Positions 3,182 to 47,100 of a stretch of 64,000 bases of DNA are shown one piece after another. The notes under the pieces are model-generated. The model had not been told where the DNA came from. It did not search any database and worked only from the letters and a program-made list of their open reading frames with translations. Position 1 is the stretch's first letter, and the number at the start of each line of letters is the position of its first letter. The DNA comes from Planctomycetota bacterium (GTDB lineage Bacteria; Planctomycetota; UBA1135; GCA-002686595). The stretch spans positions 744,001 to 808,000 of the forward strand of contig JAEUHY010000015.1 of assembly GCA_016795325.1 (NCBI GenBank), in the 5' to 3' direction. Position numbers and translations under genes: made by a program.

Positions 3182-4447
3182 ATGGCAGGCAAGTTCTTCT
3201 CAGTCGTTGGCGTCGTCGCGTTGGTCGCTCTCGGAGTGGGCGGGATCGCGGCGCTGGCGGTCGTGAAGCAGCGCATCACGCTCGTCGTGCACGACGAGCA
3301 GCAAGCGTCTGCGACCCGCGGCCCCGATCCGCTCGAGCTGCTGCGCGCCGACCTGACGCAGTTGCGCGAGGACTTCGGGGCCTTCACGCAGGCGCTCGGA
3401 CCGCAGCTCGAGCAGCTGCACGCTTCGCTCGACGGAGCTTCGAGCGAACGCGCCCAAGCCGCGCAGGCGGCGTTGGCGAAGCTCGAGGCGCGCTCCCAGG
3501 CCGACGGCGTCGCGTTCGCCGCGCGGCTCGAGGCGCTCTCGCAGAGCCTCGCACGAACGCAGTCCGAGCAGGCGGCGTCGCTCGTGTGGCTCGAGCGCAC
3601 GTTCGCGGCGGTCACGGCGCGTGCGTCGGAGGTCGAGGCGGCTGCCGCCGAAACACCGGCGCCGCTGAGCGCGGCTGTCACGCCGACGCCGAGCGACACG
3701 CCGAGCGAAACGGCCGCCGCATCCGTCGCGGCCCCGGCGCAGCCTTCCGCTCAACCCACCTCGGATCAGCCGGCGACGGACCCGGTCGCCGCGGCCTCGA
3801 GCGACGCGGCCACGCCGGCGCAGACGCCAGCGAGCGAGCCCAAACGCGCCTTCCTGTCCTTCTCACTACCTTCGCAGAGTTTCTCGTTCGCCGGCCGCCA
3901 GCGGCTGGCGCTCGTGCCGAGCCTTTCGCGCGTGGGTTTCGACGCCAAGAGCACGCTCCACGACTTCAGCGGCGTGACGCAGAAGGTGGAGGGCGAACTC
4001 GAGGTCGACCTCGCCAATCCGGCAGCCGGTTGTTCCGGCGCGGTGCGCGTCGATGCACGTTCGCTCGATACGGGCATGGCGGACCGCGACGCCGGCATGC
4101 GCGAACAACTCTCGGTCGAGGCACATCCGCAGTTGCGCTTCACCTGGACCGGCGTGCGCGACGCGCAGGTCGATGCGGCGGCGCAGAAGCTCACCGCGGT
4201 CGCGCTCGGCAAGCTCGCGATCAAGGGCGTCGAGCGCGAGGTCGCGTTCCCGGTGCGCGTGAGCGTCGACGCGAGCAAGCGCGTGGCCATCGAGGGCGAA
4301 CTCGAAGTGGCGATGAAGGACTGGGGCGTCGAGCCGCCCAGCCAACTGGGCATGATCCGCGTCGAGAACAAGCTCAAGCTGTGGATCGCGCTGCGGGCGC
4401 GTTCACTCGGCGCCGCTGCGCCGGCGGGAGACTCCCGTGCGAAGTAA
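3182..4447 (+). CDS. Membrane-anchored coiled-coil protein with a C-terminal YceI (lipid-binding lipocalin-like) domain
   Basis: The 421-residue protein has an N-terminal transmembrane helix (about 5-27), a predicted coiled coil (about 50-160), a Thr/Pro/Ala/Ser-rich linker (about 160-225) and a YceI-like beta-barrel domain (about 227-410). The barrel shows GFDAKSTLHDFSGVT near its start and the family feature LDTGMADRDAGMREQL. YceI proteins bind polyisoprenoid or other amphiphilic lipids in the periplasm. The anchor and stalk make this a tethered version. It is the first gene of a tightly overlapping operon leading to the type III polyketide synthase, so it probably binds or ferries the lipid product or precursor. 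Confidence 0.85.
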   Translation: MAGKFFSVVGVVALVALGVGGIAALAVVKQRITLVVHDEQQASATRGPDPLELLRADLTQLREDFGAFTQALGPQLEQLHASLDGASSERAQAAQAALAKLEARSQADGVAFAARLEALSQSLARTQSEQAASLVWLERTFAAVTARASEVEAAAAETPAPLSAAVTPTPSDTPSETAAASVAAPAQPSAQPTSDQPATDPVAAASSDAATPAQTPASEPKRAFLSFSLPSQSFSFAGRQRLALVPSLSRVGFDAKSTLHDFSGVTQKVEGELEVDLANPAAGCSGAVRVDARSLDTGMADRDAGMREQLSVEAHPQLRFTWTGVRDAQVDAAAQKLTAVALGKLAIKGVEREVAFPVRVSVDASKRVAIEGELEVAMKDWGVEPPSQLGMIRVENKLKLWIALRARSLGAAAPAGDSRAK

Positions 4448-4871
4448 CTTGCTGTTCGTCGTTCTCGCGAGCTGTCCTGCCGCGTGCATTGCGCCGAGCG
4501 TCGTCTCCAGCGAGGGCCGCGCGGTGGAGTTGACGCCGCAGGCGCGCGACTGGCGGCCCGCGCGTGTCGAAGACCTCGACGGTCTGTTCGAATCCACCTC
4601 GATCGAGGGGGAAGCGGCGGTTGCGCTGTGGCGCATCCACTACCACTTCGCCGTCGAGCCGGGCGTGTCGGGCGGGAGCTACAGCGGCGCCGCGCTCGTG
4701 CTCGGCGGTCTCACTCCGCAGTTCCAGACGCTCAGCGGCGTGTGGCGGCTGAACGAGGGCGCGCTCGAGTTCGACGGGGCTGCGGCGACGCAGGCCTCCG
4801 TCGCGGGTGATCTGTTGCGCCTGGAGAACGAGGGCGGAACGGTGCTGCTGCGGCGGGCCGCGATCCAATGA
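4437..4871 (+). CDS. Small lipoprotein of unknown function
   Basis: The 144-residue product starts at GTG 4437 inside the end of the YceI gene, with GGGAG about eight bases upstream. The N-terminus is a lipoprotein signal (LLFVVLASC, lipobox LASC with Cys13). The rest has no motif I recognise. The stop overlaps the next gene's ATG (ATGA at 4868-4871). Its place between YceI and the methyltransferase suggests a periplasmic or outer-membrane accessory of the lipid pathway. Confidence 0.75.
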   Translation: MRSNLLFVVLASCPAACIAPSVVSSEGRAVELTPQARDWRPARVEDLDGLFESTSIEGEAAVALWRIHYHFAVEPGVSGGSYSGAALVLGGLTPQFQTLSGVWRLNEGALEFDGAAATQASVAGDLLRLENEGGTVLLRRAAIQ

Positions 4872-5593
4872 CGAGCGCGCGCGCCAGCCGCTCGGCCGGC
4901 AACGATCTCGAGCTGTACGAGCGGAACGCGGGCTCGTGGTGGGACGCGCGCTCGCCTGCGTTTCGCTCGCTCCACGCGGTGAACGATCACCGCTTGCGCG
5001 TCTTGCGCAACTGGCTCGGCGAACGCTTCGAGGGCCAGGTGGTCGCCGACTTCGGTTGCGGCGGAGGCCTGCTGGCTAGGCCGCTGTCCGAGTCCGGCGC
5101 GCGCGTGGTCGGGCTCGACCTCAGCGCCGCGAGCCTCGCACAAGCGCGCGAACACGTCGCCGGCGCCTTCGTGCGCGCCGATGCGCAGCGCACGCCGCTC
5201 GCCGACGCCAGCGTCGACGTGGTGCTCCTCGCCGACGTGCTCGAGCACGTGCCCGACAGCGCCGCCGTGCTGCGCGAAGCGGCGCGTGTGCTCCGCCCCG
5301 GAGGCGCGGCCTTCGTCAACACGCTCAACCGCACCTGGCGGGCGCGGCTGCTCGCCGTGCAACTCGCCGAAGGCGTGCGCCTGATTCCGCCGGGCACGCA
5401 CGCCGCGGAGCTGTTCATCCGACCCGACGAGCTCGCGCAGCGCGCTTGGAGCTGCGGGCTGTCGCTCGAAGCGCTGCAGGGAGAGTCCGTCAACCTGCTG
5501 CGCACCCTGCGCAGTTGGGCGATCTCGCTGCGGCCGAGCGCGGACGTGTCGGTCGGCTACAGCGCGCTGCTTCGCAAGGGGGTCGAGTCTTGA
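4868..5593 (+). CDS. UbiG-like SAM-dependent O-methyltransferase
   Basis: The 241-residue class I methyltransferase has the SAM motif [13 protein letters not shown] (about 58-70), the acidic residue in GLDLS, and [12 protein letters not shown]. The N-terminal [20 protein letters not shown] closely resembles the N-terminus of UbiG (3-demethylubiquinol O-methyltransferase). No other quinone gene is nearby. Next to a type III polyketide synthase, O-methylation of a resorcinol- or pyrone-type ring is the more likely job. It overlaps both neighbours by 4 bases. Confidence 0.85.
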
Positions 5594-6330
5594 GCTCGCC
5601 CGTCGCCCGCGTCGCCCTCGCGTTGAGCTACGGCGTCGCAAACCACGCGTTGTTCGCCGTCGCGATCGCCGCGATGATCGCCGGACTCTACAGCGGACTC
5701 ACGACCGGCTTCGGGCGACTGGAGGGCGCCGGCGCGCTCGCCGCGAACGCAGCGCTCGCGCTGCAATTTCCGCTGCTGCACTCGTTCCTGCTCTCGCGCG
5801 CCGGCCGCGGAGTTCTGTTGCGCCTCGCTCCGCGCGCCTTCGCCGCCGATCTTTCGACGACGAGCTTCGCGTTGTTCGGCAGCTTGCAGGTGCTCGCCAC
5901 GTTTGCGCTCTGGTCGCCGTCGAGCATCGTGCTGTACGCGGCCGAGGGCGCGTGGTGGTGGCTCTCGATCGTCGCCTTCGGCGCGTCGTGGGCGCTGCTC
6001 GTCGTCGCGCTCGCCAACGCCGGCCTCGAGCTGCAGACCGGCTCGCTCGGTTGGTGGAGCGTGTTGCGCGGCAAGCGCCCGCAGTTCCGCGACTTTCCGA
6101 CCCACGGGCTGTTCCGCCGCTGCCGCCAGCCCGTCTACCTCGCCTTCGCTCTCACGCTCTGGACCGGACCGACGCTGACGCTGGACCGTCTCGCGTTGGC
6201 GCTGGTCTGGACCGCGTACTGCGCGCTCGCTCCGCTCCACAAGGAAGCGCGCTACCTGGCTCGCTACGGCGAGCGTTTCGAGCTCTACCGCCGCCGCACG
6301 CCGTACCTCTTGCCCCGACTCAAAGCATGA
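5590..6330 (+). CDS. Membrane methyltransferase of the isoprenylcysteine carboxyl methyltransferase (ICMT)/MddA type
   Basis: The chosen start is TTG 5590, which overlaps the previous stop (TTGA) and gives 246 residues. The protein has five or six transmembrane segments. The C-terminal block [15 protein letters not shown]...[18 protein letters not shown] is typical of ICMT/PEMT-like integral-membrane methyltransferases. In Streptomyces griseus phenolic-lipid synthesis, SrsB is a methyltransferase of this general kind next to the type III synthase SrsA. The same pairing here supports methylation of a membrane-embedded polyketide. The stop overlaps the ATG of the synthase gene. Confidence 0.8.
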
Positions 6331-7376
6331 AGATCGCCTCTGTCGCCAGCGCGTTCCCGTCCCGCGTCCACACCCAGAAGGAAGTCGTTCAGCGGCTCGC
6401 GAGCGTCTGGCGTGACCATCCGTCGGTCGTTTCGCGACTCGACGCCCTGCTCGGCGCGTGCGGCGTCGAGACGCGGCATTTTGTGCTGCCGCTCGAACAT
6501 TACGAGCGCACCGAGACCTTCGGGCAGTTCAACGATCTGTGGATCGAGCACGCGCTCGAGCTCGGCGAGCGCGCCGTGCGCACCGCGCTCGAACGCGCCG
6601 GGCTCGCGCCGCGCGACGTCGACGCCATCGTGTTCACGACCGTCACCGGACTCGCGTCGCCTTCGATCGACGCGCGGCTGTGCAATCGCCTCGGCTTCCG
6701 GCCCGACATCAAGCGCATGCCGCTGTTCGGGCTGGGCTGCGTCGCCGGTGCTTCGACGCTTTCGCGCGCCGCGGATCTCGTGCGCGGGATGCCGCGCGGC
6801 GTGGTCGTGGTGCTCTCGGTCGAGCTGTGCTCGCTGACCTGGCAGAAGAACGACACCTCGCTCGCGCACGTGATCTCGAGCGGCCTGTTCGGCGACGGCG
6901 CCGCGGCCGCGGTCGTGGTGGGCGCCGAGCGCGCCGCGCGCGGCCCGCGCATCGTCGACACGCGCTCGGTGTTCTATCCGGGCACCGAGGACGTGATGGG
7001 CTGGAGCATCTCCGAGCACGGCTTCTCGATCGTGCTCTCGCCGGCCGTGCCGACGGTGGCGCGCGAACGTCTGGGCCCCGACGCGGACGCGTTCCTCGCC
7101 AGCCACGGCCTCGCGCGCAAGGACATCCACTTCTGGGTGTGCCACCCGGGCGGTCCGAAGGTGCTCGCGGCGGCGCGCGACTCGCTCGGGTTGTCCGACC
7201 AGGACCTGTCGCTGTCCTGGGACAGCCTGCGCCGCATCGGGAACCTCTCGAGCGCCTCGGTGCTCGTGATCCTGGAGCGCACCTTGCTCGAACGTCCGCC
7301 GAGCGCTGGCCAGCGCGGCCTGTTGCTCGCGATGGGGCCGGGCTTCTGCTCGGAACTTCTGCTGCTCGAGGCCTGA
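6327..7376 (+). CDS. Type III polyketide synthase (chalcone/alkylpyrone/alkylresorcinol synthase family)
   Basis: The 349-residue enzyme has the complete catalytic triad: Cys138 in GLGCVAGAS, His273 in CHPGGPK and Asn306 in RIGNLSSAS. The C-terminal [10 protein letters not shown] corresponds to the GFGPG loop. Type III synthases extend an acyl starter with malonyl-CoA and cyclise it. Bacterial members next to ICMT-like methyltransferases and FAD enzymes make long-chain alkylpyrones or alkylresorcinols. The ATG at 6327 overlaps the preceding stop by 4 bases. The chain length and ring type cannot be read from sequence alone. Confidence 0.93.
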
Positions 7377-7463: not shown

Positions 7464-8414
7464 CTACTCGTCCTTGCGCGGCCGGATGCGGCCCTGGAAA
7501 CGCTCGAGGCGCTCGAGCTCTTCGTCGCTCAGTCGTTTGCCTTCCGCGGGACCGGCGCCGAGGTCCGGCGGCGTCGCCTCGGGACGCCGCGCGCCGCTGG
7601 GATCGTCGCTCGACCCAGCGCCCGGCGGCGGCGGAGCTTGCGGCGGGAACGGCGGCGTGTCCGCGCCGTTGAACGGCGGCCGGAAGCCGAACGCGGCGAA
7701 GCGTGGATCGGTCTGCGCGCGGCGCATCCGCACGTGGAGCAGCTCGTTCGCGCCCGCGAGCCAGATGAACACGCCCAGCACGGGCAGCATCATCGTGTTG
7801 GGCCACTCGAACAGCAGGCCGGCGAGCCCCAGCGCGATCATGGCGAAGGCGAACATCCGGCCCACGAACACCGCCAGTGCGGTGGCGCGCACCCAATCGA
7901 CGAACAGCGCCAGGCCCGCGCGCAGCACGCGGCCGCCGTCCATGGGGAACGCGGGCAACAAGTTGAAGCCGCCCATCGCGAGGTTCATCAACACGAAACC
8001 CCAGGCGATCTCAACCGGCGAGAAGCGCAGGTCGTCGAAGTTCGCGGAGACGTCGCTCAAGGCGAGGATCAAGAGCAGCGCGCCGCCGAAGGCAGCGAGC
8101 GCGAAGTTCACCAGCGGTCCGGCGATCGCGATCCAGAACTCGATCTTCGAGCTCTCCGGGATGCGGTCCATGCGCGCCATGCCGCCCAGCGGCCAGAGCG
8201 TGATGTCGAGCGTGCGGATCCGGAACTGGCGCGCCACCAGACTGTGGCCGAGTTCGTGGAGCAGCACGACGCCGAACAGCACCAGGAAGGCGATCACCGT
8301 CGCCAGCGGCTGCTCGTCGAAGAACAGCGGCAGCGCGAGCACCATGGCCAGCCACAGCCAGTGCACGCGCACGGTGATGCCGAAGAGGCGTCCGACGGGA
8401 AGGGAACCGAACAC
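7464..8414 (-). CDS. M50 family intramembrane metalloprotease (site-2-protease-like)
   Basis: The 316-residue membrane protein has the zinc motif HELGH (about residues 53-57) in a transmembrane helix and the second-site FPMDGGR (about 165-171), both needed for catalysis in site-2 proteases. About six hydrophobic segments are visible. It lacks the CBS pair of Rip3-like relatives and ends in a long Pro/Gly/Asp-rich hydrophilic tail (about 235-316). Substrates are typically membrane-held anti-sigma factors or signal-peptide remnants. It converges with the polyketide synthase gene and is probably a separate unit. Confidence 0.9.
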   Translation of the reverse strand: MFGSLPVGRLFGITVRVHWLWLAMVLALPLFFDEQPLATVIAFLVLFGVVLLHELGHSLVARQFRIRTLDITLWPLGGMARMDRIPESSKIEFWIAIAGPLVNFALAAFGGALLLILALSDVSANFDDLRFSPVEIAWGFVLMNLAMGGFNLLPAFPMDGGRVLRAGLALFVDWVRATALAVFVGRMFAFAMIALGLAGLLFEWPNTMMLPVLGVFIWLAGANELLHVRMRRAQTDPRFAAFGFRPPFNGADTPPFPPQAPPPPGAGSSDDPSGARRPEATPPDLGAGPAEGKRLSDEELERLERFQGRIRPRKDE

Positions 8415-8838: not shown

Positions 8839-11082
8839 ATGTCTCGAACGTCACCTCAAACGATCGCCTTGCGTGTGCTGCGCGTCGACCTCGGCGCGTT
8901 GCGCGGCGGCAGCTCTGGCGCCGCGCGTTGCGCGTCGCTGGCGGAGTGGGGGAGCGAGTACCCGGACTTCGCCCAACTCGGCGGCGGCGCGCTCGGGCTC
9001 GCCTGGATCGCGCAGGCGGCGCGCGCCGGCCGGCCGGCGCCGCTCGTCGTGTCCGTCGGCGAGTGTGTGAAACGCGGCGCTCCGACCGCGGCGCGCGCTT
9101 CGGTCGCCTCGCGTGCGCCGTTGACGGGCTTGTTTGCGGAGGGGCTTGTCGGCGGCGAGCTGGCGCGACGTTTGGCGAGCGTCGCCGACGCACTCGCGCT
9201 CGAGTCGAGCGAAGAAGGGCCGCACTTGGAGCGCGGCGACGTGCTCGTCATCGAATCCGACGCGAGCGTGCGGCTCGAGCGCGACTTCGCGGCGCTCGAC
9301 GAGAGTCCGCGAGCGTTGCACGCGCGTCTGCGCGAGCGCTTCGGCGCCTGCGCCGTGCTCGCGAACGGACCGGCGGGGCGGCGCGGCGTCGCGTTCGCCA
9401 ATCTCGCCGCGAGCGGCGACACGCCGCACTTTGTCGGACGCGGCGGCCTGGGCGCGGCGCTCGGGCGCCTGGGTCTTGCCGCAGTGTGCGTACGTGCGCC
9501 GAGCGTTGCGTCCCGCGCGGATTCGGAGCTCACGCAGGCGCTGCTCGCTTCTCCGCGGCTCGCGGCGCGCGCGGAGGGCGGCACGTTCGAACAGCTCGAG
9601 TCGCTGGGCGCGAGCGGTGAGTTGCGAACTCGCGCATTCGAACGCGAGGCGGCGCCCGCGAACGTGCGGGAGCTCGCGCGCGACATCGGCGAGCAGCGCA
9701 CGCGCGCGCACGGGTGCCAGGGTTGCCCCACGCCGTGCGGTTGGGAGTTCCGCACCTCGAGCGGCGGACTGCAGCCGGCGCGTTTCGGCGCGAGCTACGC
9801 GCTCGGGCTCAACCTCGGGCTCGACGGCTTCGACGACGCGCTCGCGCTGCTCGCGTTGTGCGACGAACTCGGGCTCGACGCGAAGGAAGCGGGCGCCGCT
9901 CTCGCGTTGCTGGCGATCGCTGCCCAAGAAGGCGCGCGCCTCGACGCGCCGCAGTTTGGTGATCGCGCGGGGTTCGAACGTGTGCTGCGCGAGTGCGTGT
10001 CGGGAGCGAGCGAGTTGGGGCGCCTTGTCGCGCGCGGTCCGCGCGAACTGGCGCGCGCGCTCGGGCTCGAAGCGCGCCACACGTGCGCGAAGGGCGCGTC
10101 GGTGCGCCCCGACGACAACCTCGCCGCGTTGCTCGGCCAGTGCGTGTCGTCGCGCGGCGGCGATTCGATGCGGACCTTTCCGTTCCAGTCCGTCGACGCG
10201 GCGCAGCTGCGCGAATGGTGCGCGCGCGGCGGTTTCGAGTTGCCCGAGGAAGCCTTCGACCCGCGCGCTCCGCGCGGCAAGGGACTGCTCGTCGCCTGGC
10301 ACGAGGACTGGAGCAACGCGCTCGACGCGCTCGGCTTCTGCTCGTTCTCGGCCGCGGCGCTGCTCAGCGACGGCGTGACGGACATCGAAGCGCTCGAGGC
10401 CGCGCTCGCGCCGCAGTGGGTCGCGTTGCGCGGCCGCGGCGCGCTGCTGCGCGCGGGTGCAGAGCTCTCGCTCGCGCAGCGCGAACTCAATCGCTCATGG
10501 GGTGCGAGTGGCGACGACGAGCGGCCGCAGTGGGCGCGTGTGCGGCTCGACGCGCCCGGTGTGTTGCCCGAGTACCTCGCGGTGCGCGCAGCGCAGAGCG
10601 CCGGGCGCTGGAGCTGGAGTGCGGCCGCGTCCGAGGCCGCGCCGAGCGACACCACCAGCGAAACGGCGAGCGACTTGGCACGCGGCGAGCAGAGCGGACC
10701 AGCAACTGGCGCGACGAACGAACCGGTGAGCAACTCGAGACGCGGCACGGCGAGCGACTCAGCCCCGCACGCCGGTCCGCGCGACGCAGCGGCGGGCGAG
10801 CGCCGTCCAGGGCGCGTGCGCGTGCGAGGCATCGGCGCCGCGGCTGCGCTGCATCCGGGCGGCCGCGCGCTCGAAGCGCTGGAGGTCGCGCTCGAGTTGC
10901 CCTGCACCGCGCAAGAACTTCTCACCCAGCTCGCCCAGCGCGTTCCGGCGGCGGCCCCGGCGATGGTCAACGCGGGCCGGCCGGTGGCGAACGTCGCGCG
11001 CGGCGGCGCGCTGCTCACCGCGGGCGCCCTGGTGCGCGACGGCGACGAACTCGACATCGTCGCCGTTGTGAGCGGCGGCTAA
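8839..11082 (+). CDS. Aldehyde:ferredoxin oxidoreductase-like protein with a C-terminal MoaD/ThiS-like domain ending in Gly-Gly
   Basis: From the ATG at 8839 the product is 747 residues. Residues about 10-115 resemble the AOR N-terminal cofactor domain (LGGGALGLAW, SRAPLTGLF). CQGCPTPC (Cys293, Cys296, Cys300) and DALGFC (Cys501) match the four cysteines that bind the [4Fe-4S] cluster in AOR. After a Ser/Thr/Ala-rich linker (about 598-655), residues 657-747 read as a MoaD/ThiS beta-grasp domain. It has VNGRPV-like and LVRDGDELDIVAVVSGG features and ends exactly in Gly-Gly. AORs use a tungsten or molybdenum bis-pterin to oxidise aldehydes. The fusion puts a sulfur-carrier-like tail on the enzyme. 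The N-terminal half is divergent, so the substrate is open. Confidence 0.75.
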   Translation: MSRTSPQTIALRVLRVDLGALRGGSSGAARCASLAEWGSEYPDFAQLGGGALGLAWIAQAARAGRPAPLVVSVGECVKRGAPTAARASVASRAPLTGLFAEGLVGGELARRLASVADALALESSEEGPHLERGDVLVIESDASVRLERDFAALDESPRALHARLRERFGACAVLANGPAGRRGVAFANLAASGDTPHFVGRGGLGAALGRLGLAAVCVRAPSVASRADSELTQALLASPRLAARAEGGTFEQLESLGASGELRTRAFEREAAPANVRELARDIGEQRTRAHGCQGCPTPCGWEFRTSSGGLQPARFGASYALGLNLGLDGFDDALALLALCDELGLDAKEAGAALALLAIAAQEGARLDAPQFGDRAGFERVLRECVSGASELGRLVARGPRELARALGLEARHTCAKGASVRPDDNLAALLGQCVSSRGGDSMRTFPFQSVDAAQLREWCARGGFELPEEAFDPRAPRGKGLLVAWHEDWSNALDALGFCSFSAAALLSDGVTDIEALEAALAPQWVALRGRGALLRAGAELSLAQRELNRSWGASGDDERPQWARVRLDAPGVLPEYLAVRAAQSAGRWSWSAAASEAAPSDTTSETASDLARGEQSGPATGATNEPVSNSRRGTASDSAPHAGPRDAAAGERRPGRVRVRGIGAAAALHPGGRALEALEVALELPCTAQELLTQLAQRVPAAAPAMVNAGRPVANVARGGALLTAGALVRDGDELDIVAVVSGG

Positions 11083-11180: not shown

Positions 11181-12254
11181 GTGTTCGAGATCCTGATCCT
11201 CAAGACCGGCGCCCTGGGCGACGTGGTGCGCACGACCGCGATCCTGCCCGGACTGCACGAGCGGCACGCCGGTGCGCGCGTCACCTGGCTAACGGCGCCG
11301 GACGCGCTCGACCTCGTGCGCCTGCATCCGCAAGTCGGCGAGGTCGTGACCTTCGACGCGCGCGCCCCCGAGCGCAGCGAGGAGCTCGCGAGCCAACTCG
11401 CGCGCCGGCGTTTTGGGTGGGTGATCTCGCTCGACGACGAACAGCCGCTGTGCGCGCTCGCTTCGCGTTTGCACGCGGCGAAGCTCTCGGGCGCGCACCT
11501 CGACGCCGAGGGCCGGCGCGCCTACACGCGCGACGTCGCGCCGTGGTTCGACATGGGACTGCTCTCCGTGCACGGCAAGGCGCGCGCCGACCAGCTCAAG
11601 GTCGAGAACCGCCGCAGCCATCCCGAGATCCTGTGTTCGATGCTCGGCCTCTCGCTGGGCAAGCCGCGCCTGGAGTTCGAAGCGCGGCATGCGCTGTTCG
11701 CGCAGGCCTTCGAAGAGCGCCACGCGCTGCGCGCGCGCGGACCTGTGATCGGACTCAACACCGGCGCCGGCGGGCGTTGGCGTTCGAAGATGCTGTCCGT
11801 CGAGCGCACGGTCGAAACCGCGGAGCGCATCCACGCGGGCCTCGGCGGCGCGGCGACCTTCGTGCTCTTCGGCGGCGCCGACGAACGCGAGCGCAACCAG
11901 CGGCTCGCCGCGCAGCTCGGCTCCCGCGTGCGTCTGGTCGACGCGGGCGTCGACAACGCGCTGCTCGAGTTCGCGGCGCTGGTCGATCGCTGCGATCTGA
12001 TGCTCACGAGCGACAGCCTCGGCCTGCACGTCGCGCTGGCGCGCAACGTGCGCACGGTCGTGTTCTTCGCTCCGACCTCCGCGCCCGAGATCGAGCTCTT
12101 CGGCTTGGGCGAGAAGGTCGTCAGCACTGCGCCGGACTACTGCTCGTACAAACCCGACGCGGACACCTCGACCTTGACGGCCGAACGCATCGCGGACGCG
12201 GTGTTGCGGCAAGTTGCGTTGCTCGCGCCGGCGCGCGCGGGCTCGCGGAACTGA
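11181..12254 (+). CDS. Glycosyltransferase family 9 (heptosyltransferase-like)
   Basis: The 357-residue protein starts at GTG 11181. It shows the GT9 pattern: ILILKTGALGDVVRTTAILPGL at the N-terminus, LNTGAGGRWRSKM in the middle, and the donor-site segment CDLMLTSDSLGLHVALA (about 273-289), followed by VVFFAPTSAPEIELFG. GT9 enzymes such as WaaC and WaaF add heptose or a related sugar to lipopolysaccharide core. A TAGAAC block lies just upstream, about 11 bases before the start. It runs tail to tail into the kinase gene with only 10 bases between the stops. Confidence 0.88.
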   Translation: MFEILILKTGALGDVVRTTAILPGLHERHAGARVTWLTAPDALDLVRLHPQVGEVVTFDARAPERSEELASQLARRRFGWVISLDDEQPLCALASRLHAAKLSGAHLDAEGRRAYTRDVAPWFDMGLLSVHGKARADQLKVENRRSHPEILCSMLGLSLGKPRLEFEARHALFAQAFEERHALRARGPVIGLNTGAGGRWRSKMLSVERTVETAERIHAGLGGAATFVLFGGADERERNQRLAAQLGSRVRLVDAGVDNALLEFAALVDRCDLMLTSDSLGLHVALARNVRTVVFFAPTSAPEIELFGLGEKVVSTAPDYCSYKPDADTSTLTAERIADAVLRQVALLAPARAGSRN

Positions 12255-12264
12255 CCCAAGCGCC

Positions 12265-15200
12265 TCAGCGCCCGCCGAGCCACTCGCTCTCGAGTTCGGC
12301 GGCGCGCGCGTCGAAGCCGGCGGCGGGCTCGCGCTCGTGGCGCGCGCGGTACACATCGCGCAGCGCGCTCGCGGCTTCGCGGGCGAGTTCGGGCAGCCGA
12401 CCCGGAGTCTTGCGCAGGGTTTCGAGCAACTCGAGCAGCAGCGCCTGCGCCTCTTCCTCCTGCCGCACCAGGATCAGCGTGAGCGCGAGGCCGGTCTGCG
12501 AGTACAGGCTCAGGTCGTGCTCGCGCCCCAGCCGTTCGACGCGCCCCGCGAGAGCGGCGCGGTAGTGCTCGAGCGCTTCTTCCGGCCGGCCGGTGCGCCG
12601 CAGGCAGCCGCCGAGGTTGTGCTGTGCATCGAGCGTCTCGGGCGAACGTTCGCCGTTGAGCGCGCGGCGCAGCGTCAGGAGTTCGCGCTGCACGGGCTCC
12701 GCTCCGGCGAAGTCGCCCTTGCTGCGCAGCAACGCACCGAGGTTGCCCAGCACGGTCGCCAACTCCGGAGTGCCTCCGCCGGCGCTCGCGCGCTGGCCCT
12801 GCGCGAGCTCGGTCCACAGCTCCTGCGCTTCGTCGAGCCGCCCCAGCTCGAACCACAACGTCGCCAGCAGGTTGCCGGCCAGCGCGCTGTCGCGATGCGC
12901 GCTGCCGACCGTGCGCTCGAGCCCCTCGTAGCTCGCGCGGGCCAGGGGCTCGGCCTCGGCGCGACGTCCGAGCGCGCGCAACGACGTCGCGAGGTGGTGC
13001 TTGACCTGACGCACGTAGGCGTGGTCTTCGCCGTGCGCCGCAGCGAGGCCTGCGAGCGCGCTGCGGAAGAGCGGCTCGGCCTCGGCGTGCCGGCCCGCGC
13101 GAGAGTGCACCAGACCCAAGGTGTCGGCGAAGGTCGCGGTGAGTGGATGCGCGTCGCCGAGCTCCGCGCGCGCTTGCTCGTAGCCCTCGCGCGCGAGCTC
13201 GAGCGCCTCGTCGAGCTTGCCGAGCGCGCGCACCACGAGCGCCGTAGTGTTCCACATCGTCAGCGAGCTCAGCGCGCCGTCGCCTTCGTTCGCACGCGTG
13301 AACTGCAGGGCGTCGCGCAGCAAGGGTTCGGCCTCGTTCAGCCGTCCGAGGCGCTGGAGCAGTTCGCCCAGGTTGTACTTGGTCGAGTTGGTCGCCGGAT
13401 CCTGTTCGCCGAGCAACTCGCGCTGGCGCGCGAGGGCTGCGCGCAGCAGCGCCTCGGCCTCGTCCGGCTCGCCGCGCGCGCCCACCAGCAGCGCGAGGTT
13501 GGACTGCAGCGTGGGGAGCACCACGCGCTCTTCCTCCGAGAGCTGCTCGATTCCGGCGATCGCTTCGCGCAGCAGCGGTTCGGCTTCGGCGCGCCGCTCC
13601 AGGCCGCGCAGGTGCAGCGCGAGGTTCGCCAGCGCGGCGAGCGTCTCGCGGTGCTGCGCGCCGAGCGCTTCGCGTTTGGCCTGGTACGCCGCGCGCGCGC
13701 AGCGCTCGCCGCTCTCGTACAAGGCGAGCTCGCGCAGCACCTCGGCGACGGGCGCATAGAGCAGTCCCGCGAGCCGCGGCCGATCGGCGTAGGTCGCGTC
13801 GATCGAGCGCACGGCCGGCTCGAACAGCTGCGCCTCGAGCACGCGCTGCGCGACGTTGCTCGCGTTCACGCCTGCGAGCGCTTGTTCGAGCGCGTCGCGC
13901 GACGGCGCGGACGCGGGCCTGGAGTTCTCGTTGCGGCGCAGTTCCTCGCGGACTCCCGCGAGCAGCTCGCGGCCGAAGTCCGCCAGCGACAGGTCGGAGA
14001 GGATGCGCGTCTGGAAGTCGGCCACGAGCTGCGTCTCCTCGGCGGCGCGCTCGGCGGCGAGTTTCTGCTCCTGGGCGAGGGCCTGCGCCGTTTCGGCCTG
14101 CGCACGCCGCTCGTCGGCGAGGCGCGCGAGTTCCTCCGCGCGCGCGGCGCTGGCCTGCGCGGCGAGCGCGTTCTGGTCGGCCTCGCGCCGCAGCATCACC
14201 GCTACGACCAGTCCGACGAAGACGGCCACGAGGCCCGCGGCAAGCGCGCTGGCGAGCGCGCGGTTGCGCTGCATCCATTTGCGCGCTTCGGCCCACGCGC
14301 CCGTGCGGTAGGCCTGCACCACGCGACCCTCGAGGTACGCGCGCAAGTCCTCGGCGAGCGCCGACATGTCGCCGTAGCGCCGGCGCCAATCGGGCTCGAG
14401 CGCGCGTTCGCAGATGGCGGCGAGCTCGGGCGGCGCTGCCTTCTCGGGGAGCGGTTCGACCTTGCCGCTGCGCACGCGCCGCCAGAGCTCCGCCGCATCG
14501 GCGCGCTCGCCCGGCGGCTTGTGGGGCGCGTAGCCGGCGAGCAACTCGTAGAGCATCGCGCCCAGCGCGTACACGTCGGTCGCGGGCCCGATCTCGGACA
14601 GTTTGCCGCGCGCCTGTTCGGGCGACATGTAGGCCAGCGTGCCGAGCACGTCGCCTTCGAGCGTGCGCGAGGAGGAGTCCTCCGACGCGGGTCCGTGCGG
14701 CGCGTCGTGCTGCTCGTTCGCGTCGTCGCGCGCCTGCTCGCCACGCGCCGCGTCCTCGCCCTCCGAGCTGAGCACGCGCGCCAAGCCCCAGTCCATCACG
14801 TGCACTTCGCCGAACGCGCCGACCATGACGTTGGCCGGCTTGAGGTCGCGGTGGATCACGCCCTTGGAATGCGCGTAGGCCATCGCCTCGCACACGCGCA
14901 GCAAAACGTCGAGCACGCGCGTTCGGCTCCAGGTCGCGTCGCCGGCGCGCGCGCGATCGAAGACTTCTTCGAGCGTCGCGCCTTGCACGAGCTTCATCGT
15001 GAAGTACGCGCGGCCCTCGGCGTCGACGCCGAGCTCGTGCACGGGCACGATGCCGGGGTGCGCGAGTTGCCCGGTCACGCGCGCCTCTTCGATGAAGCGC
15101 GAGAGTCGCGTGCGCTCGCGCGAGTCGAAGGACTCCGCCGCGCCGCCGGGCTCGGGCGGCAGCGCGCGCTTGAGCGCCAGCTCGCGCCGCAGGTCCTCGT

Positions 15201-15528
15201 CCCACACGCGCTGGATCGAGCCCATGCCGCCGCGCGCGAGCTCGCCTTCGATGCGGTAGCGCTCGCTGGGGCGCGTGCGCGACGCGATGCGCGCCACCAC
15301 GCCGAGCGCGGGATCGGGCGGAGTGGGATTGCTCGTCCGGCGCGCGCGTTGGCTGTCGAGCACAAGCGTGGCCGAGTTGCGGCCGAGCTCGAAGATCTTG
15401 CGCCACTCCGCGACGCTCTCGCGCGCCCACGGATGGGCCTCGAGCAACGTTTCTACGTCCTGCGGCGTGCCGCGTTCGCACAACCCCAGGAACTCGCTCA
15501 GCAGTTGCTCTCGACTCGGCGCGCTCAT
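12265..15528 (-). CDS. Transmembrane Ser/Thr protein kinase with C-terminal TPR repeats
   Basis: The product is 1087 residues. The kinase domain covers about 90-400: glycine loop GELARGGMGS, Lys120 in ELALKRA, HRDLKPANV with Asp228, and DWG (246-248) in place of DFG. It ends in SPEQARG and YALGAMLYELLAGY-type segments. A transmembrane helix lies at about 425-446, followed by a coiled-coil stretch. About 450 residues of kinesin-light-chain-like TPR repeats fill the rest. The ATG at 15528 is chosen because the kinase family's short N-terminal region begins there and upstream codons look non-coding. Similar kinases are abundant in Planctomycetota and Myxococcota. Confidence 0.93.
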   Translation of the reverse strand: MSAPSREQLLSEFLGLCERGTPQDVETLLEAHPWARESVAEWRKIFELGRNSATLVLDSQRARRTSNPTPPDPALGVVARIASRTRPSERYRIEGELARGGMGSIQRVWDEDLRRELALKRALPPEPGGAAESFDSRERTRLSRFIEEARVTGQLAHPGIVPVHELGVDAEGRAYFTMKLVQGATLEEVFDRARAGDATWSRTRVLDVLLRVCEAMAYAHSKGVIHRDLKPANVMVGAFGEVHVMDWGLARVLSSEGEDAARGEQARDDANEQHDAPHGPASEDSSSRTLEGDVLGTLAYMSPEQARGKLSEIGPATDVYALGAMLYELLAGYAPHKPPGERADAAELWRRVRSGKVEPLPEKAAPPELAAICERALEPDWRRRYGDMSALAEDLRAYLEGRVVQAYRTGAWAEARKWMQRNRALASALAAGLVAVFVGLVVAVMLRREADQNALAAQASAARAEELARLADERRAQAETAQALAQEQKLAAERAAEETQLVADFQTRILSDLSLADFGRELLAGVREELRRNENSRPASAPSRDALEQALAGVNASNVAQRVLEAQLFEPAVRSIDATYADRPRLAGLLYAPVAEVLRELALYESGERCARAAYQAKREALGAQHRETLAALANLALHLRGLERRAEAEPLLREAIAGIEQLSEEERVVLPTLQSNLALLVGARGEPDEAEALLRAALARQRELLGEQDPATNSTKYNLGELLQRLGRLNEAEPLLRDALQFTRANEGDGALSSLTMWNTTALVVRALGKLDEALELAREGYEQARAELGDAHPLTATFADTLGLVHSRAGRHAEAEPLFRSALAGLAAAHGEDHAYVRQVKHHLATSLRALGRRAEAEPLARASYEGLERTVGSAHRDSALAGNLLATLWFELGRLDEAQELWTELAQGQRASAGGGTPELATVLGNLGALLRSKGDFAGAEPVQRELLTLRRALNGERSPETLDAQHNLGGCLRRTGRPEEALEHYRAALAGRVERLGREHDLSLYSQTGLALTLILVRQEEEAQALLLELLETLRKTPGRLPELAREAASALRDVYRARHEREPAAGFDARAAELESEWLGGR

Positions 15529-16154
15529 GGCCTCGAAGGTAGAGACCCGCGCCGAAGGCGCACAAGCGCTCGGCGACGCTTGTACGTGTGGGTTCGCGCT
15601 CCGCATGCGCTTGACGCGTCGCTGGAGTTCCGCCGTTGATGGGCGAGCGTGTTCCTCGGTGGGGCCGAGTTGTTCGAACGAGCGGCTTGGTCGTAGGGCC
15701 GAGCGGTGTCTTCCTCTCGATCGGTGTTGCTCCGGAGCAACGTGGCCGAGGTCCGGGGCCACCGCGTTCTGCGGGCTGGCCCAGTGCGGCGCCTTTTTTT
15801 GACTCCGGGGTGCTGAGCCTTCGTTCGAGCCGGTCGCGCTCACTGCTCCGTAGCGGCGCGAGCGCGGGCCTGCTGTGACGCCCGCGTGCAGCGCGGAATG
15901 ACTCGAGGAGGAGGGCGCGGTGCGACGCGCACGTTGGGCCGATCAGGGCGTGGATCGCGCATGGGACGCGCCTGCCCGCCGAACACACGGGGCACTTTGC
16001 TCCCGAGCACCTGCACGCGCTGCCGAGCTTGAATTGACGGCTGATCTCGCTTTGAACGCGAGACGTGCGGGCGCCCGGCGCGAGACGCGGCTCGTCCCGA
16101 CTCGCGCAGCGTCGACGCGCCGAGTAGCCTCGCTACCCCCGGGCCGCCCAGCCC
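15529..16154. other. 626-base intergenic region
   Basis: I see no supportable gene here. It holds a perfect 16-base palindrome (15726-15741), a GTGGCC/GGCCAC stem next to it, and a run of eight T at about 15794-15801. The last two could form a weak terminator-like element on the plus strand. The region starts the accessory stretch that continues to 20.5 kb. Confidence 0.35.
15726..15741. repeat. Perfect 16-base palindrome upstream of the kinase gene
   Basis: GTTGCTCCGGAGCAAC reads the same on both strands. It lies about 200 bases upstream of the kinase start, where an operator for a dimeric regulator could sit. No regulator gene is adjacent, so the role is open. Confidence 0.45.
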
Positions 16155-45071: not shown

Positions 45072-45668
45072 TCAACTGTCGCCGGCGGCGCGGCGGCGCA
45101 GGCGCGAAAGATCTTCGGGCGTGTCCAAGTCGTCGAGGATCGAAACGAAGGCGCACGGGGCTTGGAGCAGCGGCGCGGCGCGCGCGCGGAGCTCGCGCAG
45201 GCTTTCGCTGGCCGAGAGTTCGACCAGCAGCGCACGCCCGATCACGACCGGGTGGCCGAAGCGCCGCGGCTCGGCGGCGGTGCAGGGCGCGAGCCAGCCG
45301 CGCTCGGGAGCGCCGGCGCGCGCCCAACTCGCGGCGAGGAGCTCGAACACCTCGGGCTCGACGAGCGGCGTGTCGACGGGCGCGATGCACAGGTCCAGGC
45401 CGGGGCGTGCGTCGCGCGCGGCGAGCACGCTGCCCGTGCGTCCGTCGGCCCAGCGCGGATTGTGCACGCACTCGACGCCGCGCGGTGTGCGCGCCGCGAT
45501 GCGCTCGAGGTCGGCGCCTGCGACCACCAGCGCGCGGCCTCCGTCGAACGCTGCGCCCGCGCGCGCCAGGCGCTCGAGCGTGCTCGCGCCGCTCCACTCG
45601 ACGAGCGCCTTGCACTGGCCCAGGCGCCGGCTCGCGCCGCCCGCCAGGATCACGAGCGCCGGCTTCAC
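45072..45668 (-). CDS. mobA: Molybdenum cofactor guanylyltransferase-like nucleotidyltransferase
   Basis: The 198-residue protein begins LVILAGGASRRLGQCKALV, the nucleotide-binding signature of MobA/MocA enzymes. CIAPVDTPLVEP contributes the magnesium-binding Asp. The length fits MobA (about 195). MobA attaches GMP to molybdopterin; MocA attaches CMP and has a closely similar N-terminus, so the exact nucleotide is open. The GTG at 45668 overlaps the stop of the E1 gene by 4 bases, supporting a shared role in molybdopterin metabolism. Confidence 0.78.
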   Translation of the reverse strand: MKPALVILAGGASRRLGQCKALVEWSGASTLERLARAGAAFDGGRALVVAGADLERIAARTPRGVECVHNPRWADGRTGSVLAARDARPGLDLCIAPVDTPLVEPEVFELLAASWARAGAPERGWLAPCTAAEPRRFGHPVVIGRALLVELSASESLRELRARAAPLLQAPCAFVSILDDLDTPEDLSRLRRRAAGDS

Positions 45669-46708
45669 GAGCCGAGGAAACGGTCGTACAGCGCGCGCGC
45701 CCGCGCCGGGTCTTCGAGCCCCTCGATCAACGCGCGCGCATCGCGGAACACCGTGAAGCGTTTGCCCTCGGCGCTGAAGCGCAGCACGCCGTCGGCGAGC
45801 ACGAGTTCGAAGCCGCTCGCTTCGAGGCGCGCCGCGAGCGCCGGCAGATCGGCTGCAGCGCGCGCGCCGCCGCCGGGTCGGACTTGCACGGTGTTGCGGC
45901 CGCACAACGAGATGGCCAGGCCTTCGCCGCTCGCGTCGAGGTAGGGGAACTCGCGCGCGCCGCAGCAGGGGCATTCAGGATCGCGCGCCGCGCTGAGCAC
46001 CCGCGACTCGAGGCGCCACACGTCGAGCTCGATCAGGTGCGGCTCGATTTCGCTCCAGCGCTCGCGCGGCGTCGCAACGAGGCGCAGCGCGGCCGCGCAC
46101 TGCAACGCCGCGATCGCGGCCACCGCGGGCAAGATCACGCCTGCCGTGTCGCAGGTGGGCAGCGCGCCGGGCGGCGGCGGTTCGGGAAACACGCAGCGCA
46201 GGCACGGTCCGAGCTGCGGCACGATGGGCAGCACGAGTCCCGCCGCTCCCACGACGCCGCCGTAGATCCAGGGCAGCCCGCGCTCGACGCAGAAGTCGTT
46301 GATCAAGTAGCGCGTGGCGAGGTTGTCGGTGCCGTCGAGCAGCAGCTGCGCGCCGCGCGCCAACTCGGCGAGGTTGTCGGCGTCGACGTGCTCCGCCAGC
46401 GCTTCGACACGCGACGGACCGCCGATGCGTGCGAGGGTTTCTTGCGCGGCGAGCGCCTTGGGGCGGCCGATGTGGCGCTCCTCGAACAGCACCTGCCGCG
46501 GCAGGTTGGTCAGCTCGACCACGTCGCGGTCGACGAGCCGCACGTGGCCCACTCCCGAGCGCACGAGCTGCAGCGCGAGCGAGCCGCCCAGCGCGCCGCA
46601 GCCGACGACCAGCACGCTGGCTTGTTCGAGTCGCGCTTGGCCGGCGGCCCCGAGCGCTGCGAAACGCACTTGGCGGTCGAAGCGCGCGTCGAAGTTCGGT
46701 GCGCTCAT
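45665..46708 (-). CDS. MoeB/ThiF-type E1-like adenylyltransferase
   Basis: The 347-residue protein has the E1 ATP-binding motif VLVVGCGALGGSLALQLVRSG, then RLVDRDVVELTNLPRQVLF, and DGTDNLATRYLINDFC. Two zinc CxxC pairs are CLRCVF and CPCC, and Cys in LPTCDTAGVILP is at the position expected for the catalytic cysteine. The C-terminal 90 residues match the small domain often attached to bacterial MoeB/ThiF proteins. Such enzymes adenylate the C-terminal Gly-Gly of MoaD or ThiS. Adjacent mobA favours the molybdopterin side. It overlaps both neighbours by 4 bases. Confidence 0.88.
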   Translation of the reverse strand: MSAPNFDARFDRQVRFAALGAAGQARLEQASVLVVGCGALGGSLALQLVRSGVGHVRLVDRDVVELTNLPRQVLFEERHIGRPKALAAQETLARIGGPSRVEALAEHVDADNLAELARGAQLLLDGTDNLATRYLINDFCVERGLPWIYGGVVGAAGLVLPIVPQLGPCLRCVFPEPPPPGALPTCDTAGVILPAVAAIAALQCAAALRLVATPRERWSEIEPHLIELDVWRLESRVLSAARDPECPCCGAREFPYLDASGEGLAISLCGRNTVQVRPGGGARAAADLPALAARLEASGFELVLADGVLRFSAEGKRFTVFRDARALIEGLEDPARARALYDRFLGS

Positions 46709-47100
46709 GCGAGCCACCACCACAGCAGGGCGCCGACGGCGAGGAGCGCGCCGAGCAGCGCGGAAGCGAGCTTCAAGAGCGGCAGGAAGTCGCTGGGCGG
46801 AGGCTCGTTGATCTCGACCCAGTTGAAGTAGCGCTTGACGTGCTCGTCGAGCGCTTCGCCGCAGTGCGGACAGTTCGGGCCCGAGTGCGTGTAGGCGATC
46901 ACGCCGTCGCAGCGCATGCAGTAGAAGTTGCGCTCCGCGCCGCCCTCCGCCACGCCGGGCGCCTTCGAGCGCTCGCGGTAGTAGTCGATCGCTTCGCGGT
47001 TGGAATCGCGGCGTGCGCGCGACCAGTGGCGCTCGCTCATCGGGCCGTAGCTGGGGCCCGCGTGGGGAGTTTGCGGCGCGGAGTCGGGTTCGGCGGCCAT
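46705..47100 (-). CDS. Small zinc-ribbon membrane protein
   Basis: The 131-residue protein has a zinc ribbon FYCMRCDGVIAYTHSGPNCPHCG (two CxxC pairs, about 59-81). It has one C-terminal transmembrane helix (about 108-129, ending in LLWWWLA). The stop overlaps the ATG of the E1 gene. The function is unknown. It is the first gene of the E1-mobA unit. Confidence 0.75.
   Translation of the reverse strand: MAAEPDSAPQTPHAGPSYGPMSERHWSRARRDSNREAIDYYRERSKAPGVAEGGAERNFYCMRCDGVIAYTHSGPNCPHCGEALDEHVKRYFNWVEINEPPPSDFLPLLKLASALLGALLAVGALLWWWLA

Follow-up and report, generated by a model that had tools for sequence, protein, structure and literature searches.

An AOR-superfamily oxidoreductase fused to a MoaD/ThiS-like sulfur-carrier domain in Planctomycetota

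Why should an oxidoreductase of the aldehyde oxidoreductase (AOR) superfamily carry, as the last part of its own chain, a domain resembling the sulfur carriers MoaD and ThiS? The question is raised by one gene in a 64,000-nucleotide stretch of a Planctomycetota genome (contig JAEUHY010000015.1, positions 744,001 to 808,000), here called the window. Positions 8839-11082 of its plus strand form a single open reading frame of 747 amino acids plus stop, free of internal stops, whose translation ends in ...VVSGG. Pfam places AFOR_N at residues 47-219 (1.5e-19), AFOR_C at 230-512 (3.7e-31) and ThiS at 689-747 (3.3e-5; 24.8 bits against a cut-off of 22.5). In the product, AFOR_N and AFOR_C are joined through a variable linker to a MoaD/ThiS-like beta-grasp domain with a terminal Gly-Gly (Table 1). 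Translation, Pfam and fold match agree on this point with the first-pass annotation, which had described an AOR fused in cis to a MoaD-like domain with a free Gly-Gly. The four cysteines it had named as AOR-family cluster ligands (293, 296, 300 and 501) are likewise seen in the translation and are invariant in 34/34 homologues; AFOR_N and AFOR_C occur in all 41 family members. In the PDB its relatives by sequence are tungsten enzymes, Pyrococcus FOR and AOR among them.

Table 1. Positions in the window of the fusion gene, its parts, its flanking genes and the candidate activating enzyme
Feature	Position	Strand	Evidence
AOR (WorL) - MoaD/ThiS-like (WorX) fusion gene, 747 aa	8839..11082	+	Translation, Pfam, AlphaFold2, Foldseek
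AOR-like module, about residues 12-590	8872..10608	+	Pfam; fold matches 1aor, 9g7j, 8c0z
C-x2-C-x3-C [4Fe-4S] ligands Cys293/296/300	9715..9738	+	Aligned with PfAOR C288/C291/C295
Fourth cluster ligand Cys501	10339-10341	+	
First pterin-binding motif D342-x-x-G-L-D347	9862..9879	+	Aligned with PfAOR 338-343
Second pterin/cluster motif D496-x-x-G-F-C501	10324..10341	+	D, G, C invariant in alignment A1
R315-F316-G317 replacing PfAOR Glu311-Tyr312-Glu313; catalytic Glu lost	9781..9789	+	Alignment
S443 replacing PfAOR His448; catalytic His lost	10165..10167	+	Alignment
Low-complexity linker, predicted disordered, residues 591-654	10609..10800	+	pLDDT < 50 at 612-648
MoaD/ThiS-like beta-grasp domain, residues 655-747	10801..11079	+	Pfam, Foldseek, homologue GG count
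Terminal Gly746-Gly747 of tail	11074-11079	+	
Divergent Peptidase_M50 membrane protease gene, upstream, opposite strand	7467..8414	-	33/35 fused loci
Glycosyltransferase family 9 (heptosyltransferase-like) gene, downstream, same strand	11181..12254	+	33/35 fused loci
MoeB/ThiF-type E1, candidate tail activator (putative role)	45665..46723	-	Sole ThiF-family match in genome

The AlphaFold2 model of the fusion protein (pLDDT 86.8, pTM 0.90) is of low confidence only at residues 1-7 and 612-648, the latter being the core of the linker. In Foldseek searches the body of this predicted structure matches 1aor (TM 0.79 by target length, E 6.1e-26) as well as 9g7j and 8c0z, while the tail matches mycobacterial MoaD 6jc0 (TM 0.81 by target length), SAMP1 3po0 (0.74) and HVO_2177 (0.61), so that the beta-grasp fold proposed earlier for residues 655-747 is also the one predicted. 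At the level of sequence profiles the tail matched no MoaD model at E <= 1 when compared with the MoaD equivalog TIGR01682; the genome's own MoaD-MoaE protein does hit that model, though under its cut-off. The two pTM values available, 0.90 for the window protein and 0.89 for a homologue (L036), both exceed the figure of about 0.82 that we estimated for a freely floating tail; read from pTM, the carrier is probably packed on the AOR body.

A frameshift or assembly error at the linker, which the first-pass annotation had recognised as a danger to its reading, was looked for and not found: the same open fusion recurs in dozens of independent assemblies, which rules out such an error and leaves the fusion real. 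A homologue is present in 34 of the 37 same-family planctomycete genomes searched (35/61 relatives overall), seven planctomycete MAG loci in a public collection also carry one, and in a 151-genome sample of the class AFOR_C was found in 50 genomes of the window's family. Among 45 distinct homologues all 44 fused ones end in GG, the sole exception being an unfused relative, and a chance Gly-Gly terminus can be discarded; the two alignments used elsewhere in this work (A1 and A2) took only GG-ending reading frames, and the GG counts were drawn from other sequence sets. No plasmid relatives were found. Median identity is 44% for the AOR part, 38% for the tail and 17% for the linker, which ranges from 26 to 65 amino acids across the family and is longest in the window protein. 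Identity of the tail domain among members spans 24-56%, with the terminal GG invariant throughout. Pfam ThiS reaches E 0.01 in just 7 of 41 members, the other 34 tails being too divergent, and AOR-MoaD fusions easily escape notice for this reason. The rarity that had been claimed for the arrangement is overstated, for it is a conserved trait of a lineage, and a fusion in Azoarcus was suggested as early as 2006 (PMC1779556).

Of particular interest is the AOR half, in which the residues associated with aldehyde oxidation are largely gone. In Pyrococcus AOR (PfAOR) numbering, the second shell of aldehyde-oxidising AORs comprises Thr243, Glu313, Tyr427 and His448, of which the last three are proposed to act in acid-base catalysis (PMC12096430; PMC13328260). 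We compared 19 fusion sequences with 31 other planctomycete AORs. Glu313 is replaced in all 19 fusion sequences (G in 11, S in 7, N in 1), as is His448 (P in 17, S in 2); the Tyr427 position is deleted in 18 of the 19 and is Tyr in none, and the Glu311 position holds R or H. The other planctomycete AORs keep Glu313 in 30/31, His448 in 29/31 and Tyr427 in 28/31. Three of the four second-shell residues are in this way missing throughout the clade, the Thr243 equivalent (T249) being retained in the window protein as read from the alignment. Cys288/291/295 and the DxxGxD motif are retained, the second motif, DxxGxC, is invariant, and the clade has acquired residues of its own (S238, R240, R244, T298, P299, F316, A318, W487 and H488). 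The name AOR given at first holds for fold, cluster and pterin motifs and fails for the activity it implies: with Glu313, Tyr427 and His448 gone clade-wide, the fusion protein is probably a member of the AOR superfamily that is not an aldehyde oxidoreductase, and its AOR half probably carries out a reaction other than classical aldehyde oxidation.

An unfused relative offers a view of how this protein may have arisen. In a maximum-likelihood tree the fused proteins form one branch (100/100), showing a single origin of the fusion, and the AOR of genome G039, from the same order and a neighbouring family (locus L079), is sister to them (100/100). At L079 the AOR gene ends in TGA and a separate carrier gene starts at an overlapping GTG (GTGA); this carrier has AVAGG at its C-terminus and shares 40% identity with the window tail, and the AOR retains its canonical C-terminal segment. 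An unfused AOR beside an unfused carrier is the state expected before fusion, and the locus looks precursor-like. A sequencing error within a fused gene may conceivably have caused the split at this one locus; it is disfavoured by the canonical C-terminus kept by the AOR and by the carrier's own GTG overlapping the stop. The L079 protein keeps Glu311 and His448 and has lost Glu313 and Tyr427, which suggests that the chemistry had begun to change before the fusion. Two same-family genomes (L080 and L081) hold another AOR type, unfused and on a long branch, which keeps Glu313 and has His448 replaced by Ser.

The surroundings of the gene are conserved too. In a check for WorS or WOR-subunit genes, with the outlying genes partly annotated, its nearest neighbours proved to be the M50 peptidase and GT9 genes of Table 1; where either is missing among the 35 fused loci, a contig end is mostly close by, and in a few cases one genome may have been counted from two collections. 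Farther out, relatives share FG-GAP, radical SAM/SPASM, PMT, RDD, SpoIIM, DUF58 and patatin-4Fe-4S genes, and no cofactor gene was recognised among the shared neighbours. The whole seems to be a block of genes inherited together, not a metabolic operon. In 11 loci the patatin-like phospholipase with a C-terminal 4Fe-4S ferredoxin domain (for example L059:12296-13606, minus strand) is encoded 1-8 kb upstream of the fusion gene. In the window itself a type III polyketide synthase-like gene (5952-7373) follows methyltransferase and YceI-domain genes (4868-5590 and 3182-4444), possibly as a small biosynthetic cluster, and the gene of a large Ser/Thr protein kinase rich in tetratricopeptide repeats (12268-15843, minus strand) adjoins the GT9 gene.

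The window genome (89.9% complete, with one AFOR_C match above cut-off) has other carriers besides the fused tail. These are a ThiS beside a ThiG-like frame (L001), a MoaD-MoaE fusion of the MoaX type with an internal VSGG (L002:1042-1743, minus strand, contig C19), and a SAMP1-like ubiquitin-like protein (Ubl) of 92 amino acids ending in SGG (L003:1501-1776, minus strand, contig C63), and together they rule out the tail as the genome's only MoaD or sulfur carrier. It had been foreseen that a normal stand-alone tungsten-type MoaD next to other pterin genes would weaken the case for the fused carrier; that objection applies in part, and the tail would seem to be an additional, dedicated carrier. 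MoaE is present in 139 of the 151 class-sample genomes, among them same-family genomes that lack an AOR, so the fused carrier is not needed for pterin synthesis generally; a role in general Moco synthesis is ruled out, and the carrier looks dedicated to the AOR. MoaC and MoeA are found in the genome, and the E1 first given as 45665-46708 is present (45665-46723) as the only ThiF-family E1 found there. In many same-family genomes the MoaE frame is of similar length, which suggests that the MoaD-MoaE fusion is common in the family; the L003 Ubl directly adjoins a 397-amino-acid repeat protein with weak matches to F510_1955-family glycosylhydrolase and Ycf48 models. As for the metal, the best SBP_bac_11 match is ModA with ModB beside it, a molybdate-type transporter; no WtpA or TupA tungstate transporter was recognised among the matches examined, which were this one and a PBP_like_2 match rejected as PstS. 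The genome also has a weaker SBP_bac_11 match (L162). Since the only transporter recognised is of the molybdate type, the bound metal may be Mo.

These observations lead us to a reading that we hold with even confidence, namely that the protein is a single-chain WorL-WorX, an AOR-superfamily oxidoreductase with a [4Fe-4S] cluster and a bis-pterin site for W or Mo, joined to a dedicated ubiquitin-like sulfur carrier that helps to mature the cofactor of its own enzyme. The cell's one E1 would adenylate the C-terminal glycine of the tail, and a sulfurtransferase would then convert the adenylated tail to the thiocarboxylate. The tethered tail would deliver its sulfur while the metal-dithiolene cofactor of its own enzyme is being assembled, the likely acceptor being MoaE from the MoaD-MoaE protein, and the mature AOR module would then perform a redox reaction other than classical aldehyde oxidation. 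For the MoaD-MoaE protein we assume processing of the MoaX type, as in other species. Several observations speak for this scheme: GG is fixed in every fused homologue while the linker drifts; the related carrier at L079, sister to the fusion clade, overlaps the AOR stop; MoaC, MoeA, MoaD-MoaE and one E1 are present in the same genome; MoaE also occurs in AOR-less relatives; and the carrier, read from pTM, probably packs on the AOR body. That the tail serves maturation of its own enzyme is most likely by analogy with WorX, which stands beside AOR genes, and with the Thermococcus UblC. Stand-alone carriers of the WorX type commonly adjoin AOR genes and have a predicted role in pterin biosynthesis (PMC13328260; PMC1779556), and in Thermococcus kodakarensis deleted for the UblC beside AOR, about 54% of the AOR activity was left and FOR activity was lost altogether (PMC11323500). 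Against self-maturation, relatives lacking the fusion can carry out general pterin sulfuration without the tail, and the step normally uses a diffusible carrier, so that a permanent tether is unusual.

The main rival to maturation gives the tail a part in catalysis itself, the AOR module doing sulfur chemistry with its own carrier, either by reducing sulfur species at the metal-pterin site to load the tail or by using the thiocarboxylate as donor or tethered substrate. A changed substrate would then have caused the loss of the aldehyde residues, and the missing second-shell set, the new invariants R240, R244, W487, H488, F316 and A318, the predicted placement of the carrier on the AOR body (from pTM), and the precedent of a ThiS domain at the C-terminus of sulfite reductase (PMC1779556) all fit such a scheme. 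Yet Glu313 and Tyr427 were lost before the fusion, as the unfused L079 protein indicates, and the conserved neighbours include no recognised sulfur-metabolism gene; we consider a catalytic tail rather unlikely. Its fullest form, a self-contained redox enzyme of sulfur transfer whose AOR-type metal site would have shifted from aldehydes to sulfur compounds and would either load its own tethered ubiquitin-like tail or use the thiocarboxylate there, is an unlikely one.

The fold matches to SAMP1 and HVO_2177 allow a different use of the Gly-Gly, in SAMP-like conjugation to other proteins or to itself, controlling stability or location, and the Thermococcus Ubls do both form conjugates and carry sulfur (PMC11323500). 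An enzyme of 650 residues is nevertheless improbable as a modifier, the scanned neighbours included no JAB-type deconjugase, and the coupling of AOR and carrier even when unfused fits cofactor assembly better; we regard a regulatory tail as very doubtful. Just as doubtful is a beta-grasp domain that docks like an extra subunit and whose carrier chemistry is no longer used. The predicted packing on the body and the divergence of 34/41 tails from Pfam ThiS would suit it, but docking alone needs no GG, and the exposed GG has been kept invariant while the domain around it drifted. The fold, the cluster, the pterin motifs and the retained T249 would also suit an ordinary aldehyde oxidoreductase that merely has its maturation factor in cis, an explanation made highly improbable by the absence of the mechanism residues Glu313, Tyr427 and His448 (PMC12096430) from 19/19 fusion sequences.

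The exact function of WorX-type carriers beside tungsten enzymes is unproven, and a fusion fixed in cis is a natural test case: one carrier held across dozens of genera with its GG invariant can test whether a carrier matures its own enzyme. The lost acid/base residues, for their part, point to an unrecognised reaction within a widespread metalloenzyme superfamily. A literature search of titles and abstracts found no report of an AOR-MoaD fusion in Planctomycetota. The new elements appear to be a fusion fixed throughout a lineage, a sister in which the two parts are still separate, and the disappearance of the residues that catalyse aldehyde oxidation; a C-terminal AOR-MoaD arrangement had already been suggested for Azoarcus (PMC1779556).

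Among known systems, actinobacteria have a fusion of sulfite reductase and ThiS (Iyer et al. 2006) that likewise joins a redox enzyme to a C-terminal sulfur carrier, but the enzyme is unrelated, the comparison being made from the paper only. The MoaD-MoaE protein (MoaX type, L002 in the window genome) also fuses a sulfur carrier to a partner enzyme; there the carrier is N-terminal and its GG internal, whereas in the AOR fusion it is C-terminal with the GG free. The Azoarcus AOR-MoaD, compared from its description in PMC1779556 (Iyer et al. 2006), has the same domain order, with the wording there that the two 'might be fused'; unlike the present clade it is a single case, in another phylum. In Aromatoleum aromaticum EbN1, whose AOR was later purified, the MoaD-like AorD and AorE are encoded by separate genes (PMC6365974). 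Thermococcus TK1066 and the adjacent UblC TK1065 (PMC11323500) share with our protein an AOR gene beside a MoaD-family carrier, but the genes are separate, the organism is an archaeon and its AOR is active on aldehydes. WorL and the adjoining WorX of the Class I tungsten oxidoreductases (PMC13328260) have in common with it an AOR-fold large subunit with one [4Fe-4S] cluster and two pterin motifs, and the coupling to a ThiS-like protein; in contrast, the planctomycete protein is one polypeptide, belongs to a lineage-wide clade of single origin, and has lost the catalytic second shell.
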